Source of the DNA: Chloroflexota bacterium
GTDB lineage: Bacteria > Chloroflexota > Dehalococcoidia > RBG-13-53-26
Direction of reading: 5' to 3'
Assembly (NCBI GenBank): GCA_030616195.1
Contig: JAUWXW010000025.1
Span: 1-11,311, forward strand
DNA length: 11,311 nt
Shown: positions 2,289-10,377 of the stretch, piece by piece
How the letters are laid out: every line of letters starts with the position of its first letter
Numbering within the stretch: position 1 is the stretch's first letter
Notes under the pieces: model-generated
Told to the model about the DNA's origin: nothing
What the model saw: only the letters and a program-made list of their open reading frames with translations
Databases searched by the model: none
Position numbers and translations under genes: made by a program

Positions 2289-2326
2289 CGATGTTAATCT
2301 GTGGGAGAGCCATTCCCGGCTCCACG

Positions 2327-2352
2327 GGGGCGACACGCCGTGTCGCCCCTAC
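2327..2352 (-). repeat. REP-like palindrome, GTAG head, CGACAC core
   Basis: Read on the minus strand, GTAG is followed by a perfect 10-bp stem starting GGGGCGACAC (its G shared with GTAG), a 3-nt GGC loop and the complementary arm. The TAG of the GTAG head (2349-2351) is the addA stop codon. The head and first stem bases match the 28-bp palindromes near the RAYT gene, but the core differs, so this is a related second type. Confidence 0.7.
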
Positions 2353-5300
2353 TTCAAATCGTGCACTTTCCCCGGCTGCGTGAACAGGAGCCGGAGCGTG
2401 ACCTGTGAAGGACCAAGCTCCAGCATCCGGGACAGCGCGCTCCGGTAAAGCGACAGTTGCGAGCGGTATCGTTCCGCCGCCTCAGTCAACTGGGCGTCAC
2501 TGGCAATCTCATCGCTCTTGAAATCCAGCACCGCAGCGCTAAGTGGCCTGCCGTCTGGACCCCGCACGATGGCAACGCGGTCGAAAACACCCGTCACCCA
2601 CTGGTCATCCAGGACAATATCGAAACGCTTCTCACGCCACAGGTCAACATCGCCCTCGGGCCGGGACAGGGCTTGGCGGATCTCCGCAGACGCCAGCGCC
2701 TGGCGGAACTGCTCGACGACCTTCTGCTTCACATCCTCCGCCACTGGCGACATCTGCCGCCATTCCCCAATCAACTCCTCGATATCCACTTGGTCGATCC
2801 AGGAGACCTTCTCGAACAGCTTGTGTACGGCTGTGCCGAAGTCCCGGCTGTCCCGTACATCACGTGCAAACAGCGAACCGGCCGTCTGCTCACCCTCTGC
2901 CCGCTCCGACGGCGACACACGAACCAGTCGCCGCCGCTGCGAAGATTGTTGGCCAAAGTCCTTCGGCAGTTCACGCGGCCCGGCGGGTTCGGCAGGCGGC
3001 TCCCTTCGGGGCGTTTTCGTGTGCCAATCGCTTTCACCGGCCTCGTAGAGACACACAAGCTCTTCACCGTCAATGGTGACCTGCTCCCCATCGACCGGCT
3101 TCGCTTCGCCGACCAGTTGCGATTTCAAAAAAGCGGCGGCCGTTACGGCAGTGGCGGTCTTGCCCGGAAAACCGGTGATTATGTACAGACCCTGTCTGGC
3201 ACGGGTCAACGCCACGTACAGCAGGCACAGTGCCTCGAAACATGCCGTCTCATCGCTGGCCTGAACTTGTGCTGCCAGCACCGGATCGTTTTGGGCCACG
3301 ACCCGGCGCGGCATCTTCAATGCCCACAGTGGCCGGCTGGTCCCGGGGTCGCGGGCGGTTACAAAATCAAGCTGGCCTCCACCAGTCATCCCCCTCCCCT
3401 GCAAATCAGGCAATATGACTATATCGAACCCCAGGCCCTTGGCCTGGTGTATGGTCATGACGCGCACGGCATCATCGGCAGCGAGCTCATCAATTTCGTA
3501 GTTGTCCACGAAACGCAGAAAGGCATTGCAGTCGCGGCTGCCGCTGCCGTCGAACTCGCCGGCGGCGTCGATCAGGTCCTCGATCCTCTTCCGACCAAAA
3601 CCGTCGAGGGGATGCGCCCCGTCCAGCCGCCGACCCCAGTGGCGAAGGAACGCCTGAAAACCGGACGTCTGTATTTCCCGCAGCAGCGCCAGCGGCAGAT
3701 TGTCCCGGTCCAGCCGTTCTTCCGCCAAGCACTCTCTAAGGGGGCTCATCTCCAGGTGGCGCCAGGCAAAGGTATCCCCCGGATGCGCGGCGAACTTCAC
3801 CAGCGAAAGGAGGAGGGACACCACGGGATTATCCTTGATTGGGGCCCTGCCTTCATAGACGATATTCATGCCCTGGCACTCGCCGCGCAGCAAGTTGACC
3901 ACCTCTTTGCCGCTGTCATTGGTGCGTACCAGGACCGCCACCGAGAGCCCGCGTCTCAGCGGGTCGATCTCCTTCAGCAAACGGGCCGCTACCCGGTAGC
4001 GGTCGCCGTCGGTGGGCTTGACTTCGCCCCCTTCACATGGCGGCTCCAGCAGGCCAACATAACCGTGTTGGGGGACAACGTCCTCCTGGCACTGATGCAC
4101 CTCCCAGATTTTCTCCCATTCGGTGATGGCTCCTGCCGGCAACCCACTCCCCCCTAGATTGCCGAAAACGCGGTTGACCGTATCGATGACGGGCTGACAG
4201 GAGCGGAAGGACGTATTCAGCGGGACCTGTTCGATTTGGCCCCCGTACTGTTCCAGTATCTTGCCGAAGAGCCGGGCATTGCCGCCGCGCCAGCCGTAGA
4301 TGGCCTGTTTGACATCACCGACGTAGAAAAAGCTGCGCTGGCCGGTGGTGTCCTGCAGTATCTCATCGGCAAGATTGCGGAGCACCTCCCATTGCAGGTC
4401 GCTGGTGTCCTGGAACTCGTCCAGCAGCCAGTGGTCGAGCTTACAGTCGAGGCGGTAGTCGATGTACAGCCGCGCCTCCTCGCCCAGAGCCCGGCTGAGC
4501 AGGGAGCCGCCACTGTAGCTGTTGGCCGCCGTCAGCAGATACTGGGCATCGGTGAAGGTGAGCTTCCCCTGACGGCGGACCACGTCATCGTAGACCTGCT
4601 CATACTGGTCGAGAACACGGTAAATGCCGTGGGTCTTCTCCAAGGTGGTGTCGAGTTCCGTTTTCATGACGTGAGTGAGCAGCGCCAGAGCCAGGCGGCA
4701 TTGTTGCGGCGGTAGGTCAAAGTCTGTTCTGCCGATCCGGATACTGGCGTTGCTGTGGCGCAGACCTTCTATATCATCAACAAGCTTCTGGAACAGGTAT
4801 TCGACATCCCGTGTCCAGGGAGAGCCGGCATCAAAGCGACGGACGGCATCAATGAAAGTATGCCAGCGGCCCCTGATACTGTCGGATAATCTATCTTTCG
4901 CCAGCAGCACCTCCAGGTCATCCGCAACGGCATTGACGTCATCGACGACCGTCGTCAGCCAGGGCGACCCTCCGGGCCAGATCACCTCTTGTCGGCCCCA
5001 GGCATCAGGCACGGGCAAGACCTGGTAATAGCTTTGGTAACCACCGATGAAAGTATCCAGGCTGCGTTCCAGCCCTTTCTCCTCCTGACCGAAGGTCGCC
5101 TGTTTAAAGGCCTCCAGGAACTGGCGCTGTGCCGCGGGGTCTACATAGCGACTGTCGAAGATTCTACCCAGCGCTTCCTGGCGAGCGCTCTTCGCCGCTG
5201 CCCCATCGTTATCCAGCAACTGCAAATCCGCCGAGATTCCCAGTTCCATGGGGAAAGTCCGGATCACGCCTACAGTGAAGCTGTCCAGCGTGCTGACATG

Positions 5301-5606
5301 CAGGCGGTGCAGGTTGACCAGCAGCGTTCGAAGCAGTCGCAGAAAGTCGTCCTGACCGAACTCCGCCTTGCCAATTCGTTCTCCGGTTTTCCGCGCCTGC
5401 TCCGCCGAAACGGCGGCTTCCCGTAGGTATTTGACGATTGAGTCAAAGATCTCGCCCGCGGCCTTTCGTGAGAAGGTCAGCGCGTTGATCTGGTCCGGTC
5501 TCACCTCGTTGGCCAGAAGCCGCATATAGCGATGGGCAAGCTGAAAGGTCTTGCCCGAGCCGGCCGAGGCCGCTATGGCTTGGTGACCAATCCTTTCGGC
5601 TGTCAT
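2349..5606 (-). CDS. addA: AddA-like UvrD/Rep helicase and PD-(D/E)XK nuclease
   Basis: Superfamily 1A helicase with a C-terminal RecB-type nuclease, the counterpart of AddA in the AddAB complex that unwinds and resects double-strand breaks for RecA loading. From the chosen ATG (1085 residues): Walker A ASAGSGKT at 13-20, motif Ia TFSRKAAGE at 44-52, Walker B LLDEFQDTSDLQW at 394-406, motif III GDVKQAIYGWRGG at 430-442, motif IV near 463-475, motif V TIHQAKGLGFD at 718-728, motif VI LYVALTRARQG at 796-806. Nuclease residues are His928, Asp1009, Asp1028-x-Lys1030 and QLSLY at 1050-1054. Length is a little below Bacillus AddA (about 1230). The start is uncertain: in-frame ATG at 5631-5633 and GTG at 5649-5651 also exist, but both lie within a palindromic element. 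The ATG at 5604-5606 is 12 residues before Walker A, with GGGGAG about 14 nt upstream. The stop TAG is inside an element. Confidence 0.93.
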   Translation of the reverse strand: MTAERIGHQAIAASAGSGKTFQLAHRYMRLLANEVRPDQINALTFSRKAAGEIFDSIVKYLREAAVSAEQARKTGERIGKAEFGQDDFLRLLRTLLVNLHRLHVSTLDSFTVGVIRTFPMELGISADLQLLDNDGAAAKSARQEALGRIFDSRYVDPAAQRQFLEAFKQATFGQEEKGLERSLDTFIGGYQSYYQVLPVPDAWGRQEVIWPGGSPWLTTVVDDVNAVADDLEVLLAKDRLSDSIRGRWHTFIDAVRRFDAGSPWTRDVEYLFQKLVDDIEGLRHSNASIRIGRTDFDLPPQQCRLALALLTHVMKTELDTTLEKTHGIYRVLDQYEQVYDDVVRRQGKLTFTDAQYLLTAANSYSGGSLLSRALGEEARLYIDYRLDCKLDHWLLDEFQDTSDLQWEVLRNLADEILQDTTGQRSFFYVGDVKQAIYGWRGGNARLFGKILEQYGGQIEQVPLNTSFRSCQPVIDTVNRVFGNLGGSGLPAGAITEWEKIWEVHQCQEDVVPQHGYVGLLEPPCEGGEVKPTDGDRYRVAARLLKEIDPLRRGLSVAVLVRTNDSGKEVVNLLRGECQGMNIVYEGRAPIKDNPVVSLLLSLVKFAAHPGDTFAWRHLEMSPLRECLAEERLDRDNLPLALLREIQTSGFQAFLRHWGRRLDGAHPLDGFGRKRIEDLIDAAGEFDGSGSRDCNAFLRFVDNYEIDELAADDAVRVMTIHQAKGLGFDIVILPDLQGRGMTGGGQLDFVTARDPGTSRPLWALKMPRRVVAQNDPVLAAQVQASDETACFEALCLLYVALTRARQGLYIITGFPGKTATAVTAAAFLKSQLVGEAKPVDGEQVTIDGEELVCLYEAGESDWHTKTPRREPPAEPAGPRELPKDFGQQSSQRRRLVRVSPSERAEGEQTAGSLFARDVRDSRDFGTAVHKLFEKVSWIDQVDIEELIGEWRQMSPVAEDVKQKVVEQFRQALASAEIRQALSRPEGDVDLWREKRFDIVLDDQWVTGVFDRVAIVRGPDGRPLSAAVLDFKSDEIASDAQLTEAAERYRSQLSLYRSALSRMLELGPSQVTLRLLFTQPGKVHDLK

Positions 5607-5630
5607 TCTGTCTGTTGCTACTCCCCTTTT

Positions 5631-5656
5631 CATAGGCGGGTGCTCTGTCACCCGCC
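5631..5656 (+). repeat. Palindromic element, CATAGG head, CTCTGT loop (unit 1 of inverted pair)
   Basis: After CATAG, GGCGGGTG and CACCCGCC pair as a perfect 8-bp stem around a CTCTGT loop. On the minus strand this unit contains the two upstream candidate start codons of addA (GTG 5649-5651, ATG 5631-5633). It is the mirror partner of the unit at 5662-5689. Confidence 0.65.
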
Positions 5657-5661
5657 TCCCT

Positions 5662-5689
5662 GGGTGGGTGACAGAGCACCCACCCTATG
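5662..5689 (-). repeat. Palindromic element, CATAGG head, CTCTGT loop (unit 2 of inverted pair)
   Basis: GGGTGGGTG and CACCCACCC form a perfect 9-bp stem. Read on the minus strand the unit begins CATAGGGTGGGTG with the same CTCTGT loop as unit 1. The two head-out units can also pair with each other through a 16-bp perfect core (GGGTGCTCTGTCACCC and its complement). This layout resembles a bacterial interspersed mosaic element, in the addB-addA gap. Confidence 0.65.
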
Positions 5690-5703
5690 TTTGCAGCACT
5701 TCA

Positions 5704-5731
5704 GTAGGGGCAATTCATGAATTGCCCCTAC
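5704..5731. repeat. 28-bp REP-like perfect palindrome (GTAGGGGCAATTCA half-site)
   Basis: A perfect palindrome: GTAGGGGCAATTCA followed by its exact reverse complement. It lies at the 3' end of addB, whose TAG stop codon (5728-5730 on the minus strand) is part of the GTAG head. A GTAG tetranucleotide ahead of a hairpin is the signature of REP sequences recognised by RAYT transposases. Confidence 0.85.
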
Positions 5732-8577
5732 CGCATAAACGCCTCAAATGTCTCGACATTGACGCACTCAGCAACACCGGCATGAAACAGGCTCTCAAAA
5801 TCGTCATACGGGACCTTTGCCGCCGGCGGCCAGAATCTGCGCTTTCGGATATCCTCCAAAACGCCCTCAGCGCACGCCCTGGCAGACGCCAGTAGTCCAT
5901 CGTCGAAACCCTCCCAAATGGTCACGCCCGTGTCGTTTACCGCCTTCGGTATATTGAAGTAGCCGACTTCTATGTGGCCCCGAAATTCTCCCTTGTCCTG
6001 AAGTATGATTATGTAAAGCGGCAGTTGCAGATCGGCCCAGCGCTTCTCCTTGCCATCGACCTTGACTCTCGCATATTCCGCCCCATCCGGCGAAAGGGAA
6101 GCAATATGGGCCTTCTCTGGACTCTGCGCCGTGTCGGAGGTCTTGTAATCCAGGACTCGTATCAGGCCACTGTGACGGTGCCGGTCAATGCGGTCTATCC
6201 GTCCGCGGACAAGCATGCCGGCCAGTTCAGCCTCGATCAGCATCTCAGAATGCAGGATCTCCCAACCTTCCCTGACCAGCCCGGCCTGCACCCGCGCCGC
6301 CGCGCCCAGTCGCTGTTTGGCCGCATCGATCTGTATCCCGACCTGAAGCGACGGTGACGGGCCAAAGCGCCTAGCCGCCCAGTCCTCTGCCTCGGTGCAG
6401 AGGAAGTGGCGCAGTTCGCCCTCGTTTTCACATCGCCGCATCTCGTCATTCTGGGCCATCCTGTGCAGCACATAATGCACCAGCGAACCGAAATCCAGCG
6501 CATCCATCTCCCTTTTCTCATCGCCCAGCTCTTCCATGCCCAGGACGTGCCGCAGGTAGAAACGGAAAGGACATGCCAGGTAATCCCCGAAACAGGTAAC
6601 CGGCATGCTCTGAAGGTCCAGCCGGTCTGCGGCAAGGTCCGCGGGAGGTCCGGCCTCCAGCAGAAAACTGATCGTCGCCGGATAATTGTCCCGCCTCTCC
6701 TCTGGATCGCCGAAAAGGCGTTCGCAGCGGCGGGGCAGTTCCTCGTCGCTGCAGTGGAAGAGCAGGCGTGAAGGCTTCAACGGTTCACCCTCAGCGCTTG
6801 TCTTTCCGGCAATAAAGCAGACGCGGCCCTCTTCCCGGCGTGACTCAATCATTGCCCGCACCAAATACGCATCCCTGGCCAGCCAGTCCGCATCGCGACG
6901 CAGACTCAACTGGCCCCGAAGCGAGTCAGGCAGGAAGACGTCGCTCAACCGGCTGTCGGGCACGAACCCGTCGTTCATTCCGGTGACAATCAGCAGCGGG
7001 GCGTCGTCCCACGGCAGCTCCAGCCATCCCTCAAGGTCGATGGCGGCGCCCTCACGTTCCGGGTAGTACTGCTCCTTGCTCAACCTTCGCAGCAAGAGTT
7101 CCAGGGCGTCCCTTTTCTCGATCCCGAGGGCGCTGACAACTCCACCGGCGAGCTCACCGAGCGTGCCATTGATCAGGTTCGCCACGGCAATGAATTCCTC
7201 TCCCTCCGGATTACTGGGATTGGCCATGCGCACCTCGTACACGGCCTGAAGTAGCGACCGCACCGCGCTGTCCAGGTCACCATTCTCGAAGGCGTCCAAC
7301 TGTTCCCGGACGAAGGCCACCGCCTTTTCCAGGTCACCAAACTCCTCTCGTTCTTCTTCAGATTTGGACGGCAGGCGGGAAAAACGACGAGTTATGTCAT
7401 CCAGCCCCAGGGGCAGGTGACGGTTCTGGAAATTGTCCAGTTGTTGCAGCACCCGGCGCGGCGGCAGGTTGCGTTTATTCTGAAGAAAGCCGAGGACGTC
7501 GGCGTGCCGCAGGAAGGCACTGAAGGCGGCGTACGTGCCCTCATTGACCAGGGCCCGGAACGCCTCAAGAAGCTGGTACAGGGGATGTTGACCCACGGCT
7601 TTTCCAGCAGGATCGAAGGCGGGTAATCCCTTGTCCTCCAGGTCAGCCGCCAGAAAAGGGGTTACTCCGCTGTCCGGCACGCCGATGGCGATGTCATCGG
7701 GGCCGAAGCGGCCCGCCTCCGCCGTTATCACTTCCAGAGCCTTGCGGCTCTGTGATACCGGAGAGCCGGCGAGAATGACATTTGCTTCGGCATCGGGGAT
7801 ATCAATTCGGGACTCACGCCATTTTCCCGCCACAGGGCGCCCCCAGTCGTCAAAATGGTCCGCCAGCGACTCAGGGGCATGTACCAGGATAACCACCGAG
7901 AGCTGCTCTGCCAGGTGCTCCAGCGCCCGGACTACGAGTGGCGTGGGATCAGGTACCGCAGCTACAACTATGCGCTCGATTCCTTCCGGCAGTTCTGGGC
8001 TTTGGGACCGTTTGATCTTCAGGGCGGAGGGGTCCTCTCGGCCAAGTTCCTCGAGCCGCTCCAAGTAGGCCGTCTCCAGCCTGGCCAGATCGCGCCACCG
8101 CTCCGGTTCCTCTAGAACGCTGCCGAAGTCTCTGTGCACATCCACGATGCAGCGCCCGCCGTCCACCAGCACATCGCGCAGCCGCTGAATCATTTCGCCT
8201 GTGTGTATGGCCCAGGTGAAGTCCTGCTCCGGTGTCCCCGCCGGGAAAAGCCCGCTGTATTGGGTGAGGTCGGCCCTCGTCAGCACATCAGCCCAGACCG
8301 CGGCCACTTCCGTCTGGTTAGCCACATTCGCCGCCTCTTCGTCGGGGTGCAGGAAGAAAGATGGTGTCACCACCCGGGGCGAGAGCAGCGCCGTGTTCTG
8401 TTCGGCACAGTGGAGCGCCAGGGCCTGCCGCAGCCGCCGTCCCGCCTGAGCCGTCGGCACCACAATGAGATATTTCCCCAGGTCAACCGGCCCGGAGACC
8501 TGCGGCGGCAGCAGAAACTCCCGCACCCTGGCCGTCACCGGTGCATCCCAGCCGAGAAAATGCCGTTCTACGGGCAT
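5728..8577 (-). CDS. addB: AddB-like PD-(D/E)XK nuclease subunit
   Basis: Second subunit of an AddAB-type double-strand-break resection enzyme, encoded upstream of addA on the same strand. ATG at 8575-8577 is preceded by GGAAGG with 6-nt spacing. The 949-residue protein has an inactive-looking N-terminal helicase fold: the Walker A position reads VVPTAQAGRRLRQAL (39-53) without GKT/S. VTGMNDGFVPDS (531-542) matches the GxNxGxxP signature of AddB/RexB-type proteins. The C-terminal nuclease begins near VTCFGDYLACPFRFYLR (660-676), then His701, Asp795 in RGRIDRID, Asp810-x-Lys812 in VLDYKTSD, and QLPLY at 851-855, so nuclease catalysis appears intact. Of the four AddB cluster cysteines, Cys669 and Cys938 could be present, but the middle Cys-x2-Cys pair is not seen. 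The stop codon falls in a palindromic element. It could also be classed simply as a PD-(D/E)XK family protein. Confidence 0.88.
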   Translation of the reverse strand: MPVERHFLGWDAPVTARVREFLLPPQVSGPVDLGKYLIVVPTAQAGRRLRQALALHCAEQNTALLSPRVVTPSFFLHPDEEAANVANQTEVAAVWADVLTRADLTQYSGLFPAGTPEQDFTWAIHTGEMIQRLRDVLVDGGRCIVDVHRDFGSVLEEPERWRDLARLETAYLERLEELGREDPSALKIKRSQSPELPEGIERIVVAAVPDPTPLVVRALEHLAEQLSVVILVHAPESLADHFDDWGRPVAGKWRESRIDIPDAEANVILAGSPVSQSRKALEVITAEAGRFGPDDIAIGVPDSGVTPFLAADLEDKGLPAFDPAGKAVGQHPLYQLLEAFRALVNEGTYAAFSAFLRHADVLGFLQNKRNLPPRRVLQQLDNFQNRHLPLGLDDITRRFSRLPSKSEEEREEFGDLEKAVAFVREQLDAFENGDLDSAVRSLLQAVYEVRMANPSNPEGEEFIAVANLINGTLGELAGGVVSALGIEKRDALELLLRRLSKEQYYPEREGAAIDLEGWLELPWDDAPLLIVTGMNDGFVPDSRLSDVFLPDSLRGQLSLRRDADWLARDAYLVRAMIESRREEGRVCFIAGKTSAEGEPLKPSRLLFHCSDEELPRRCERLFGDPEERRDNYPATISFLLEAGPPADLAADRLDLQSMPVTCFGDYLACPFRFYLRHVLGMEELGDEKREMDALDFGSLVHYVLHRMAQNDEMRRCENEGELRHFLCTEAEDWAARRFGPSPSLQVGIQIDAAKQRLGAAARVQAGLVREGWEILHSEMLIEAELAGMLVRGRIDRIDRHRHSGLIRVLDYKTSDTAQSPEKAHIASLSPDGAEYARVKVDGKEKRWADLQLPLYIIILQDKGEFRGHIEVGYFNIPKAVNDTGVTIWEGFDDGLLASARACAEGVLEDIRKRRFWPPAAKVPYDDFESLFHAGVAECVNVETFEAFMR

Positions 8578-8616
8578 GGCCTACCTTCCCATACAATACC
8601 GTATTTCGGTTGTTCC

Positions 8617-8644
8617 GTAGGGGCAATTCACGAATTGCCCCTAC
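8617..8644. repeat. 28-bp REP-like palindrome with one central mismatch
   Basis: Same element as at 5704-5731, with C instead of T at the centre (CAATTCACGAATTG), so one central base pair is lost. It fills most of the 63-nt gap between the RAYT stop and the addB start. Its minus-strand GTAG head contains the RAYT stop codon TAG (8641-8643). Confidence 0.85.
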
Positions 8645-9180
8645 TGGTTTGACATGTTGACTGGGTTTTCTTCATCATCTGCCCACCGCAACGGGTTCTC
8701 GGCGATATACTGCCGGATACGGTTCAAAGACGCTTCGTCGCGGATTACGTGTTCATAATAGCTGCGTTGCCAGACGGGAGCACCGTACGTGTGCCGCAGT
8801 TGATTGATTCGTTTGGCCGTGTTCATTTTCGCATAGCCAATGATCTTGGGAAGCGACATCTTGCGACGCTCCGTTCGATATTCCTCCACGGGCAATTCAT
8901 GAATTGCCCCTACAGAGATCACGATGATTCCATGTATACGATTGGGCATAACCACGAAGGCATCTAATTCCACATAGGGATAACGGCGCGGCAAATCCAC
9001 CCAGCACTCCTGGACCATCTCACCAGAGACATTCAACCGCATTGAACCATCGCTGATTTCCCCGAATAGGCCTTCCCCATCTTTGGTACAAACGGTGACG
9101 AAATAGGCTCCAGGTTGGGAATAATCGTATCCCCGAAGCCGGAGCAAACGGCGGTGATGCCCACCTGGATCGAATCTCAT
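8641..9180 (-). CDS. REP-associated tyrosine transposase-like protein (RAYT, Y1_Tnp), probably catalytically impaired
   Basis: Small Y1 transposase-family protein (179 residues). RAYTs are single-strand nucleases that bind and cut GTAG-headed REP hairpins. Family features are RRLLRLRGYDYSQPGAYFVT (10-29), LFGEI (38-42), FVVMPNRIHGIIVI (75-88), KRINQLR (123-129) and VWQRSYYEHVIRDE (136-149), which holds the expected Tyr region. The usual MPNHxH metal-binding motif is MPNRIH here: Arg81 (CGT) replaces the first His, one transition from CAT, while His83 remains. Residues 90-97 (VGAIHELP) are the in-frame translation of a REP-like element inserted in the gene. ATG 9178-9180 follows GGGGAG by 3 nt, a short spacing. 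The stop codon lies in another element. The gene reads toward addB but is functionally unrelated. It may be a decaying or domesticated RAYT. Confidence 0.85.
   Translation of the reverse strand: MRFDPGGHHRRLLRLRGYDYSQPGAYFVTVCTKDGEGLFGEISDGSMRLNVSGEMVQECWVDLPRRYPYVELDAFVVMPNRIHGIIVISVGAIHELPVEEYRTERRKMSLPKIIGYAKMNTAKRINQLRHTYGAPVWQRSYYEHVIRDEASLNRIRQYIAENPLRWADDEENPVNMSNQ
8886..8913 (-). repeat. REP-like element inserted in frame within the RAYT gene
   Basis: Read on the minus strand it begins GTAGGGGCAATTCA and continues with the complementary arm as far as TGAATTGCCC. The last four bases are degenerate (GTGG rather than CTAC). It is read in the only stop-free frame of the element, giving RAYT residues 90-97 between the metal-binding motif and the C-terminal half. 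Confidence 0.8.
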
Positions 9181-9226: not shown

Positions 9227-9253
9227 GTGGGGGAATTCACGAATCGCAGCTAC
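9227..9253. repeat. Decayed copy of the REP-like palindrome
   Basis: The 27-nt stretch starting GTGGGGGAATTCACGAATCG and ending CTAC aligns with the 28-bp element with several substitutions and a 1-nt deletion. The outer GTAG head and part of the stem are lost on one side. It lies about 50 nt upstream of the RAYT start and looks like an older insertion. Confidence 0.55.
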
Positions 9254-9398: not shown

Positions 9399-9426
9399 GT
9401 AGGGGCAATTCATGAATTGCCCCTAC
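9399..9426. repeat. 28-bp REP-like perfect palindrome upstream of the DUF169 gene
   Basis: Identical to the copy at 5704-5731: half-site GTAGGGGCAATTCA plus its exact complement. It lies in the divergent region between the RAYT and DUF169 genes and ends directly beside the -35-like box of the DUF169 promoter. Confidence 0.85.
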
Positions 9427-10201: not shown

Positions 10202-10346
10202 GGAGGGTGGGCGGAGTGAGACGGAACCCCTCCCGGTTTGACTATCATCGAGCCTGGAAAGGCTCTCCCACAAACAGATTAGTGTGCGAGGCCAATTCCA
10301 GAGGGTCGAGCACAGAGAAGCAGGGTCTCCTTACGGGTCTTATAGT

Positions 10347-10377
10347 GCAGGAGCACGGCACGCCGTGCCCCTGCTAC
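10347..10377 (-). repeat. REP-like palindrome with CACGGCGTGCCGTG core
   Basis: Positions 10347-10374 form a long stem with one mismatch (A10352/C10369). On the minus strand it reads GTAG, then CAGGGGCACGGCGTGC and the complementary arm. Together with the element at 2327-2352 it shares the GTAG head and an ACGGCGTG centre. It lies in the roughly 200-nt gap between two convergent genes and may also act as a transcription-blocking hairpin. Confidence 0.65.

Follow-up and report, generated by a model that had tools for sequence, protein, structure and literature searches.

A stretch of 11,311 nucleotides (nt) from a Chloroflexota bacterium of the class Dehalococcoidia (contig JAUWXW010000025.1, GenBank assembly GCA_030616195.1; hereafter the window) carries on its minus strand, in the order RAYT, addB and addA, a gene for a RAYT/TnpAREP-like transposase and genes for AddB- and AddA-like proteins, every one of which stops at the TAG of a GTAG-headed palindrome. 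A preliminary description of this DNA had placed the three stops in palindrome heads, with the G of the head as third base of the last codon (AAG in addA, CGG in addB, CAG in RAYT), and had noted two different cores; all of this was confirmed, the core types being GACACGGCGTGTC at addA and AATTC(A/G)TGAATT at addB and RAYT. In its intact form the element reads GTAGGGGC-core-GCCCCTAC, with both feet present, and is a double-foot repetitive extragenic palindrome (REP) of a RAYT/TnpAREP system. Domain calls for the window genes are Pfam matches, and all genome counts of elements refer to relatives.

2349..5606, minus strand: addA-like helicase/nuclease gene (Pfam UvrD and PDDEXK_1)
2323..2352, minus strand: addA stop element, GTAG-headed palindrome GTAGGGGCGACACGGCGTGTCGCCCCCGTG with a decayed far end (CCCCCGTG); TAG 2349-2351 is the addA stop
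5728..8577, minus strand: addB-like nuclease gene, 949 amino acids (Pfam PDDEXK_1; 311 homologues found, 120 listed)
5704..5731, minus strand: addB stop element, perfect double-foot REP GTAGGGGCAATTCATGAATTGCCCCTAC; TAG 5728-5730 is the addB stop
8641..9180, minus strand: RAYT/TnpAREP-like Y1 transposase gene, 179 amino acids (Pfam Y1_Tnp)
8617..8644, minus strand: RAYT stop element, double-foot REP with core AATTCGTGAATT (minus strand); TAG 8641-8643 is the RAYT stop
8886..8913 (approximately), minus strand: one-sided decayed REP within the RAYT gene, with open frame VGAIHELPV, between the HUH and Tyr motifs
9227..9253, minus strand: degenerate copy upstream of the RAYT gene, stopping nothing (repeat family D1)
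9399..9426, strand not assigned: perfect double-foot REP between RAYT and a DUF169 gene, stopping nothing (repeat search)
About 10347..10377, strand not assigned: related palindrome with another core (GGCACGCCGTGCC), downstream of the DUF169 gene and not its stop (repeat search)

The window thus holds seven recognisable copies: three that serve as stops, one in frame within RAYT and three that stop no gene. Three of the four copies entered by a gene are in the TAG phase and one is in the open phase (binomial p = 0.11 against a null of 1/3), so that the window by itself is weak evidence and could not settle the finding; the earlier judgement that three out of three is unlikely to be chance rested on a selected count here and holds in relatives, where the bias lies far beyond chance. 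The proposed set of one open frame, one immediate TAG and one central TGA applies to the AATTC cores and fails for the addA element, which has two open frames. The two feet pair together, placing the stop codon within the foot of a predicted hairpin at addB and RAYT, and these two elements fold markedly better than shuffled sequences (z = -4.65 and -5.02, respectively). The addA element does not stand out (z = -1.61), and its predicted stem starts at G, the last base of the stop codon.

Phase of the elements at gene ends in related genomes

The window core, with at most one mismatch, was found in 8 of 393 genomes drawn from the class of genome G001. Arms are common to all copies and cores vary (AATTCATGAATT, ACGGCATGCCGT, GTTCAATTGAAC, GACCGGCCGGTC and many more). 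Exact two-footed elements with any core numbered 185 in G042, 49 in G188, 41 in G125, 20 in G001, 18 in G076, 15 in G122 and 10 in G072. Among 190 palindromes, in scanned stretches mostly picked for two-headed copies, 166 had GTA on both sides, 19 on one side and 5 on neither.

The position of these elements relative to gene ends was examined in a first set of 171 exact elements from 132 loci (658 kb, nine genomes), after removal of copies with identical 40-nt context and leaving out genes whose stop falls beyond the end of the stretch. At the 342 element ends, the TAG of the head was the stop of a called gene in 20 cases; one stop fell elsewhere within an element, 7 genes read through and one overlapped partially, 146 ends trailed a stop by at most 300 nt and the remaining 167 had no gene ending or entering from that side. 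The seven read-throughs, two of them RAYT genes, stopped 149-803 nt past the head. The distribution of offsets was sharply peaked, with 20 gene ends at offset 0 and at most 6 at any other offset from -40 to +44. By genome, TAG ends per element amounted to 11/46 in G042, 6/18 in G001, 2/6 in G122 and 1/5 in G076, and to none in G188 (0/49), G125 (0/41), G072 (0/4), G059 (0/1) and G110 (0/1).

A second set, assembled under the same definitions, added 68 elements (36 from 973 kb of G042, 15 from G080, 9 from G122, 6 from G076 and 2 from G001). For G042, the opening 20 kb of contigs selected by their number were used together with four stretches on contigs C31 and C34, a selection independent of element position, and the stretches of the other four genomes were picked for listed elements; a further 16 G042 stretches lay between already-known elements and were expected to bring genes but hardly any new elements. 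This set yielded 9 TAG stops (4 in G042, 3 in G076, 2 in G122 and none in G001 or G080), no stop elsewhere inside an element, no read-through ending within 120 nt, 6 deeper read-throughs and one partial overlap, the latter in G080. The genes concerned had at least 120 codons in 5 of the 9 cases, and the rate in G042 was 4 stops for 36 elements, against 11 for 46 in the first set.

Counting gene ends only, TAG was the stop in 20 cases against 1 in the first set (p = 4e-9, null 1/3) and in 9 against 0 in the second (p = 5e-5), or 29 TAG, 1 inside and no near read-through in both sets pooled. With the deep read-throughs included, the fractions were 20/28 in the first set (p = 4e-5) and 29/43 in both (p = 5e-6). 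A looser definition of the head, the bare 8-mer GTAGGGGC, gave 474 heads with 37 TAG stops, 2 stops inside, 3 read-throughs of at most 120 nt, 17 deeper ones, some of which must be chance 8-mers, and one partial overlap. TAG made up 91/215 and 83/233 of the stops away from heads in two genome groups, so the codon as such is not unusual. Placement relative to stops is therefore non-random, as had been proposed: in G042, G001, G122 and G076, copies in the TAG phase gather at offset 0 and the other two phases are nearly missing at gene ends.

Of the 20 genes so terminated in the first set, 17 gave a Pfam match, one of them below its cut-off, and the TAG-stopped genes include ClpB-like, prolyl-tRNA synthetase-like, MutL, dephospho-CoA kinase, diacylglycerol kinase and methylmalonyl-CoA mutase genes. 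The last domain came within 2 positions of the profile end in 10 of the 20, and in 7 of those it ended at most 15 residues from the stop. One element served as the stop of two convergent open reading frames (ORFs) in three cases, at loci L104, L323 and L326 (one of the L326 ORFs has only 70 codons).

The TAG-stop position is unevenly distributed among lineages. Exact elements were TAG stops in 26/128 cases in G042, G001, G122 and G076, against 0/105 in G188, G125 and G080 (p = 5e-8); the grouping was made post hoc, by outcome, so that the p value reads as heterogeneity, with G072, G059 and G110 (6 elements, no TAG stop) left ungrouped. Under the looser definition the fractions were 31/219 in the same four genomes against 6/239 in G188 and G125, in which the position is thus rare, not strictly absent. 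As sister genomes, G188 and G125 have compared flanks that are about 79-91% identical in DNA and have some insertions in common, which makes their effective number smaller. The suggestion that the element is intrinsically a mobile stop-codon module is not supported by this contrast, as the same arms yielded no TAG stop among the 105 exact elements in G188, G125 and G080.

The flanks of the elements showed no strong target motif. Position -1 was C in 58% of 130 non-stop flanks in the TAG-stop genomes and T in 53% of 180 in G188 and G125, and the flanks in the latter two are A-rich at -6 to -2. Copies in these two genomes lie mostly a few tens of nt past stops, with A-rich upstream and T-richer downstream flanks, and look as if they served as two-way terminators.

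Explanations for the phase bias

Our preferred reading, which we hold to be probable by a modest degree, is that RAYT spread the double-foot GTAG REPs and that selection then retained chiefly copies in the TAG phase, which is the simplest account. The neighbouring RAYT (TnpAREP) would most likely spread the REPs. Having GTAG at both ends, an element presents a TAG in one of three phases to a gene entering from either side. Copies landing in gene bodies would mostly be lost, and those at gene ends would survive chiefly when the TAG halts translation where the ribosome reaches the hairpin's foot, on the old stop or no more than a few codons from it; in the other phases ribosomes would be pushed through the hairpin and a foreign tail would be added. 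Later, the TAG and the arms would be retained as the core changes, and a single element could come to stop two convergent genes. The hairpin with a stop codon in its foot probably constitutes a 3' mRNA structure, to judge from the literature on REPs. A case compatible with such retention is a CoA-ligase-like gene whose stop lies in a GTAG head in both G122 and G076, at one and the same codon and with cores that differ (69% identity over the compared 700 bases); a stop that outlived its core is likelier here than two insertions at that codon.

Comparisons with orthologues gave a divided picture, since element-free relatives of addA and of a deacetylase-like gene keep the stop position with another stop codon and those of addB and ClpB mostly end later. 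The 15 relatives of addB with DNA (57-70% identity) end 2-5 residues later, and at the protein level two close homologues (98% and 84%) share its last residue position; in one of the 15, L001 (62%), addB ends at the TAG of another GTAG palindrome (GTAGGGACACAACATGTTGTGTCCCTAT). Likewise, 11 of 12 orthologues of the ClpB of G001 at 72-81% identity end 2-9 residues later, and in L233, which ends at the same residue, a different GTAG repeat follows the stop immediately; the ends are more variable in copies at 53-57% identity. The longer relatives of addB (by 2-5 residues) and ClpB (by 0-9) fit truncation. For methylmalonyl-CoA mutase of G042, compared as proteins only, most of the 30 homologues shown share its end column, and the one most similar to it (81%, element status not seen) ends one residue earlier. 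For the prolyl-tRNA synthetase of G042, a search within its order returned only G042 itself, and a comparison of loci for element-free sites listed shared sites and repeat retrievals of the same site.

Several observations weigh against selection as the sole filter. For addA, nine relatives (at least 55% identity) include the end of the gene, and two of them, without an element, stop at the same codon position (L072 with TAA, L002 with TGA); the others stop one codon earlier (L003 and L011 with TAG, L005 with TAA) or later by one codon (L013 and L020), seven (L008) or ten (L015). A polysaccharide-deacetylase-like gene of G076 has a G122 orthologue (73%) that ends in TGA at the same codon, again with no element. 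These relatives fit insertion at a native stop, and such exact coincidence is not often expected from random insertion in the last codons. Orthologue tails differ by up to 9 residues, which suggests that tail changes are tolerated, and selection alone must remove nearly all gene-end copies in other phases. Reading past the element in 24 cases revealed no excess of near in-frame stops (median 18 codons, against 14 and 14.5 in the other frames). In a DnaJ-type gene of L104 the TAG cuts the DnaJ_C domain at 72 of 152 profile positions, so that not every TAG stop is harmless. The counts themselves derive from our own hexamer-score ORF picker (132 loci, 731 genes, 85.5% coding) instead of a published gene finder; 3 of the 20 TAG-stopped genes in the first set had no Pfam match, and 4 of the 9 in the second, with 42-100 codons, may be false calls. 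No movement of an element was observed, and spread by RAYT is an inference.

Some of these points are what targeted insertion would predict. If RAYT placed REPs at stop codons, or if a target GTAG (a G followed by a TAG stop) became the head, the stop would be native and the phase automatic, in agreement with a bias that is near absolute at gene ends, with the unchanged stop positions of addA and the deacetylase-like gene and with the end column shared by most of the mutase proteins shown; moreover, GTAG takes part in the choice of cleavage sites by one TnpAREP (2021, PMC8266576, as far as considered here). The element-free relatives that stop at the same codon do so, however, with TAA or TGA and not GTAG, and the TAG of addA in L003 and L011 is preceded by A. 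Exact elements with the same arms are never TAG stops in G188, G125 and G080, and looser heads seldom are in G188 and G125; the flanks lack a strong motif, and both heads are mostly kept at non-stop sites too, which makes the head part of the element (in stretches mostly chosen as two-headed). Targeting is on these grounds possible but unlikely, and the evidence on the alternative originally put forward, insertion targeted to gene ends or stops as opposed to survival of 3'-end insertions only, is divided. A related and equally doubtful possibility is that in some Dehalococcoidia the GTAG head, or the state of gene-end DNA, ties RAYT-driven REP insertion to stop codons, giving a heritable stop-plus-hairpin cassette that is long kept, changes its core and can be shared by convergent genes, and that this link was lost from, or never arose in, sister lineages that have the same arms.

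We consider it improbable that the elements are old functional 3' hairpins, retained as terminators or mRNA stabilisers, in which the overlap with TAG is a by-product of long retention and compact spacers and not of insertion. The different cores behind one stop in G122 and G076 would suit this explanation, as would the shorter spacers of the TAG-stop genomes (median 57.5 against 101 nt in the fetched stretches) and the situation in G188 and G125: of the 62 ends no more than 60 nt from a stop, 43 fall at offsets -20 to -40, and T makes up 43% of the 8 nt that follow the element, as is seen around intrinsic terminators. It accords poorly with arms that are identical at unrelated loci within genomes while cores differ, with the in-frame copies in RAYT genes and with the fact that the 11 terminator-like sites listed for the window include none of the three stop elements. 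Chance, by which a few of the many copies close to gene ends would have their TAG in frame, would suffice for the three of four entered copies in the window and is otherwise very improbable, being refuted in the relatives by the counts of 20 against 1 and 9 against 0 unless the gene calls are badly biased.

Three further candidates were rejected. Loss of the original stop followed by use of a backup TAG downstream predicts proteins clearly longer than their orthologues, which is not what was seen: addA exceeds its closest relatives by 0-1 residue or is shorter than they are, the deacetylase-like gene is equal in length, and addB and ClpB are equal or shorter. Most homologues of the mutase end level with it, and the closest one falls a residue short. 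As a general route, clean insertion just ahead of the old stop, by a few codons, fails for lack of an excess of near in-frame stops past the element; addB alone has a plausible read-on tail (REVLQT, then a stop), which may be chance. Derivation of the left GTA from the target conflicts with the presence of both feet in most copies wherever placed (in stretches mostly two-headed by choice).

Relation to known REP systems and further features

In the parts of the cited papers considered here, the termini of GTAG REPs are reported often to supply the TAG stop of flanking ORFs, and REPs to enter recBCD and uvr genes (Di Nocera, De Gregorio and Rocco 2013, PMC3733652). The elements of the window resemble that superfamily in the GTAG head, the palindrome, the many copies, the location near 3' ends and the inclusion of Chloroflexi among the phyla, and differ in being tagged at both ends, whereas the REPs described there are tagged at one. 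They are GTAG-tagged palindromes repeated within genomes (7 copies in the window and 10-185 exact elements per genome in seven relatives), mostly non-coding and near 3' ends, as indicated by the 146 of 342 ends that trail a stop and the 7 that are read through. Neither a phase count, nor a lineage contrast, nor a comparison of TAG-stopped genes with element-free orthologues appears in those parts of PMC3733652, and the open-access literature, to the extent covered, held neither a phase count of TAG-supplying REPs nor a lineage contrast. No match to Rfam was obtained.

A 2018 paper (Quentin et al., PMC6006769) described REPs with a foot at both ends, as well as REPs lying between HuH and Y inside tnpAREP genes. 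The REPtrons of TnpAREP subclass 2.4 have GT[AG]G as one terminus and the reverse complement of it as the other, keep a REP in frame in tnpAREP between HuH and Y and occur in scattered phyla. The window matches these features in the copy at 8886-8913, which lies between the two motifs and keeps the frame, and in the pattern GT[AG]G ... C[TC]AC, present in 166 of the 190 palindromes (from stretches mostly chosen for two-headed copies). Membership of the window RAYT in subclass 2.4 is, on these described features, putative, and the main text of PMC6006769 does not use the term stop codon. E. coli REPs also occur within 15 nt of stop codons, and translation is reported to be lower when they are less than 16 nt away (RepRanger paper, PMC12306157). 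The hairpin close behind the stop is a likeness to the present elements; in the latter, unlike in E. coli, the stop codon belongs to the element, in or at the predicted hairpin's foot. As far as those sources show, earlier publications thus already cover GTAG REPs that supply a TAG stop, REPs with two feet and RAYT genes that contain a REP. New here are the host and the quantified TAG-phase bias at gene ends, strong in four genomes and, in three others, absent from the exact elements. Where nearly every gene-end copy shares one phase, as it does chiefly in some lineages, the copies offer a simple readout of insertion bias versus selection in the spread of REPs by RAYT. Because the element determines how its host genes end (last codon, stop and 3' hairpin), annotation and expression studies should count it as part of the gene.

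The window RAYT matched Y1_Tnp with an E value of 4.3e-5 and retains the Tyr region; its HUH motif reads MPNRIHG (RIH), against MPNHIHG (HIH) in a 99% identical relative, P0121. A RAYT gene adjoins addB in the window and also in L001, where the RAYT (5464-5991), directly upstream of addB, carries a stop at codon 18. The copies beside addBA look decayed or variant, given the Arg at the first His of HUH and the L001 stop. A palindrome-encoded peptide, less its last residue, occurred in 108 of the 120 RAYT homologues listed of 3940 found (P0121-P0240), against 1/120 and 7/120 in two control families. Peptides that back-translate to the GTAGGGGC palindrome were VGAIHELP, VGAIHESP, VGARHAVP, VGATHASP and VGAGFKPA. 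The list is biased toward the query's own peptide. Thirteen of the 25 homologues lacking VGAIHE match, and the match in P0183 is a chance one that falls outside the linker. A search of viral contigs for RAYT returned one locus.

Between addB and addA lies a further feature.

5635..5684, strand not assigned: second, unrelated inverted repeat with 22-nt arms in the addB-addA spacer (inverted-repeat pair I10)

The start of addA is likely the ATG at 5606 (MTAERIG), favoured over a GTG at 5651 that lies within another palindrome. In many relatives the addB stop is almost directly ahead of addA; the spacer of the window is 121 nt long and holds two palindromes, and in L001 a REP sits between the two genes, so that REPs seem to have pushed addB and addA apart. 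The organism labels among the 120 AddB homologues listed of 311, few of them named, were Dehalococcoidia or Chloroflexi; the closest loci from named genomes belonged to Dehalococcoidia and Chloroflexi metagenome-assembled genomes, some being labelled Bipolaricaulota or Tritonobacter.

In G042, a repeat of about 170-190 bp with a double-foot REP near its centre (L205, 18562-18748, and about 20 other places, 82-100% identity) is a larger composite element. A second palindrome type, with the head GTGGGAGAGCC, occurs twice in inverted order in the window, at 2301-2325 and 10250-10272 (pair I7). One of its copies abuts the addA stop element, and the type may represent another REP class with a GTGG head.

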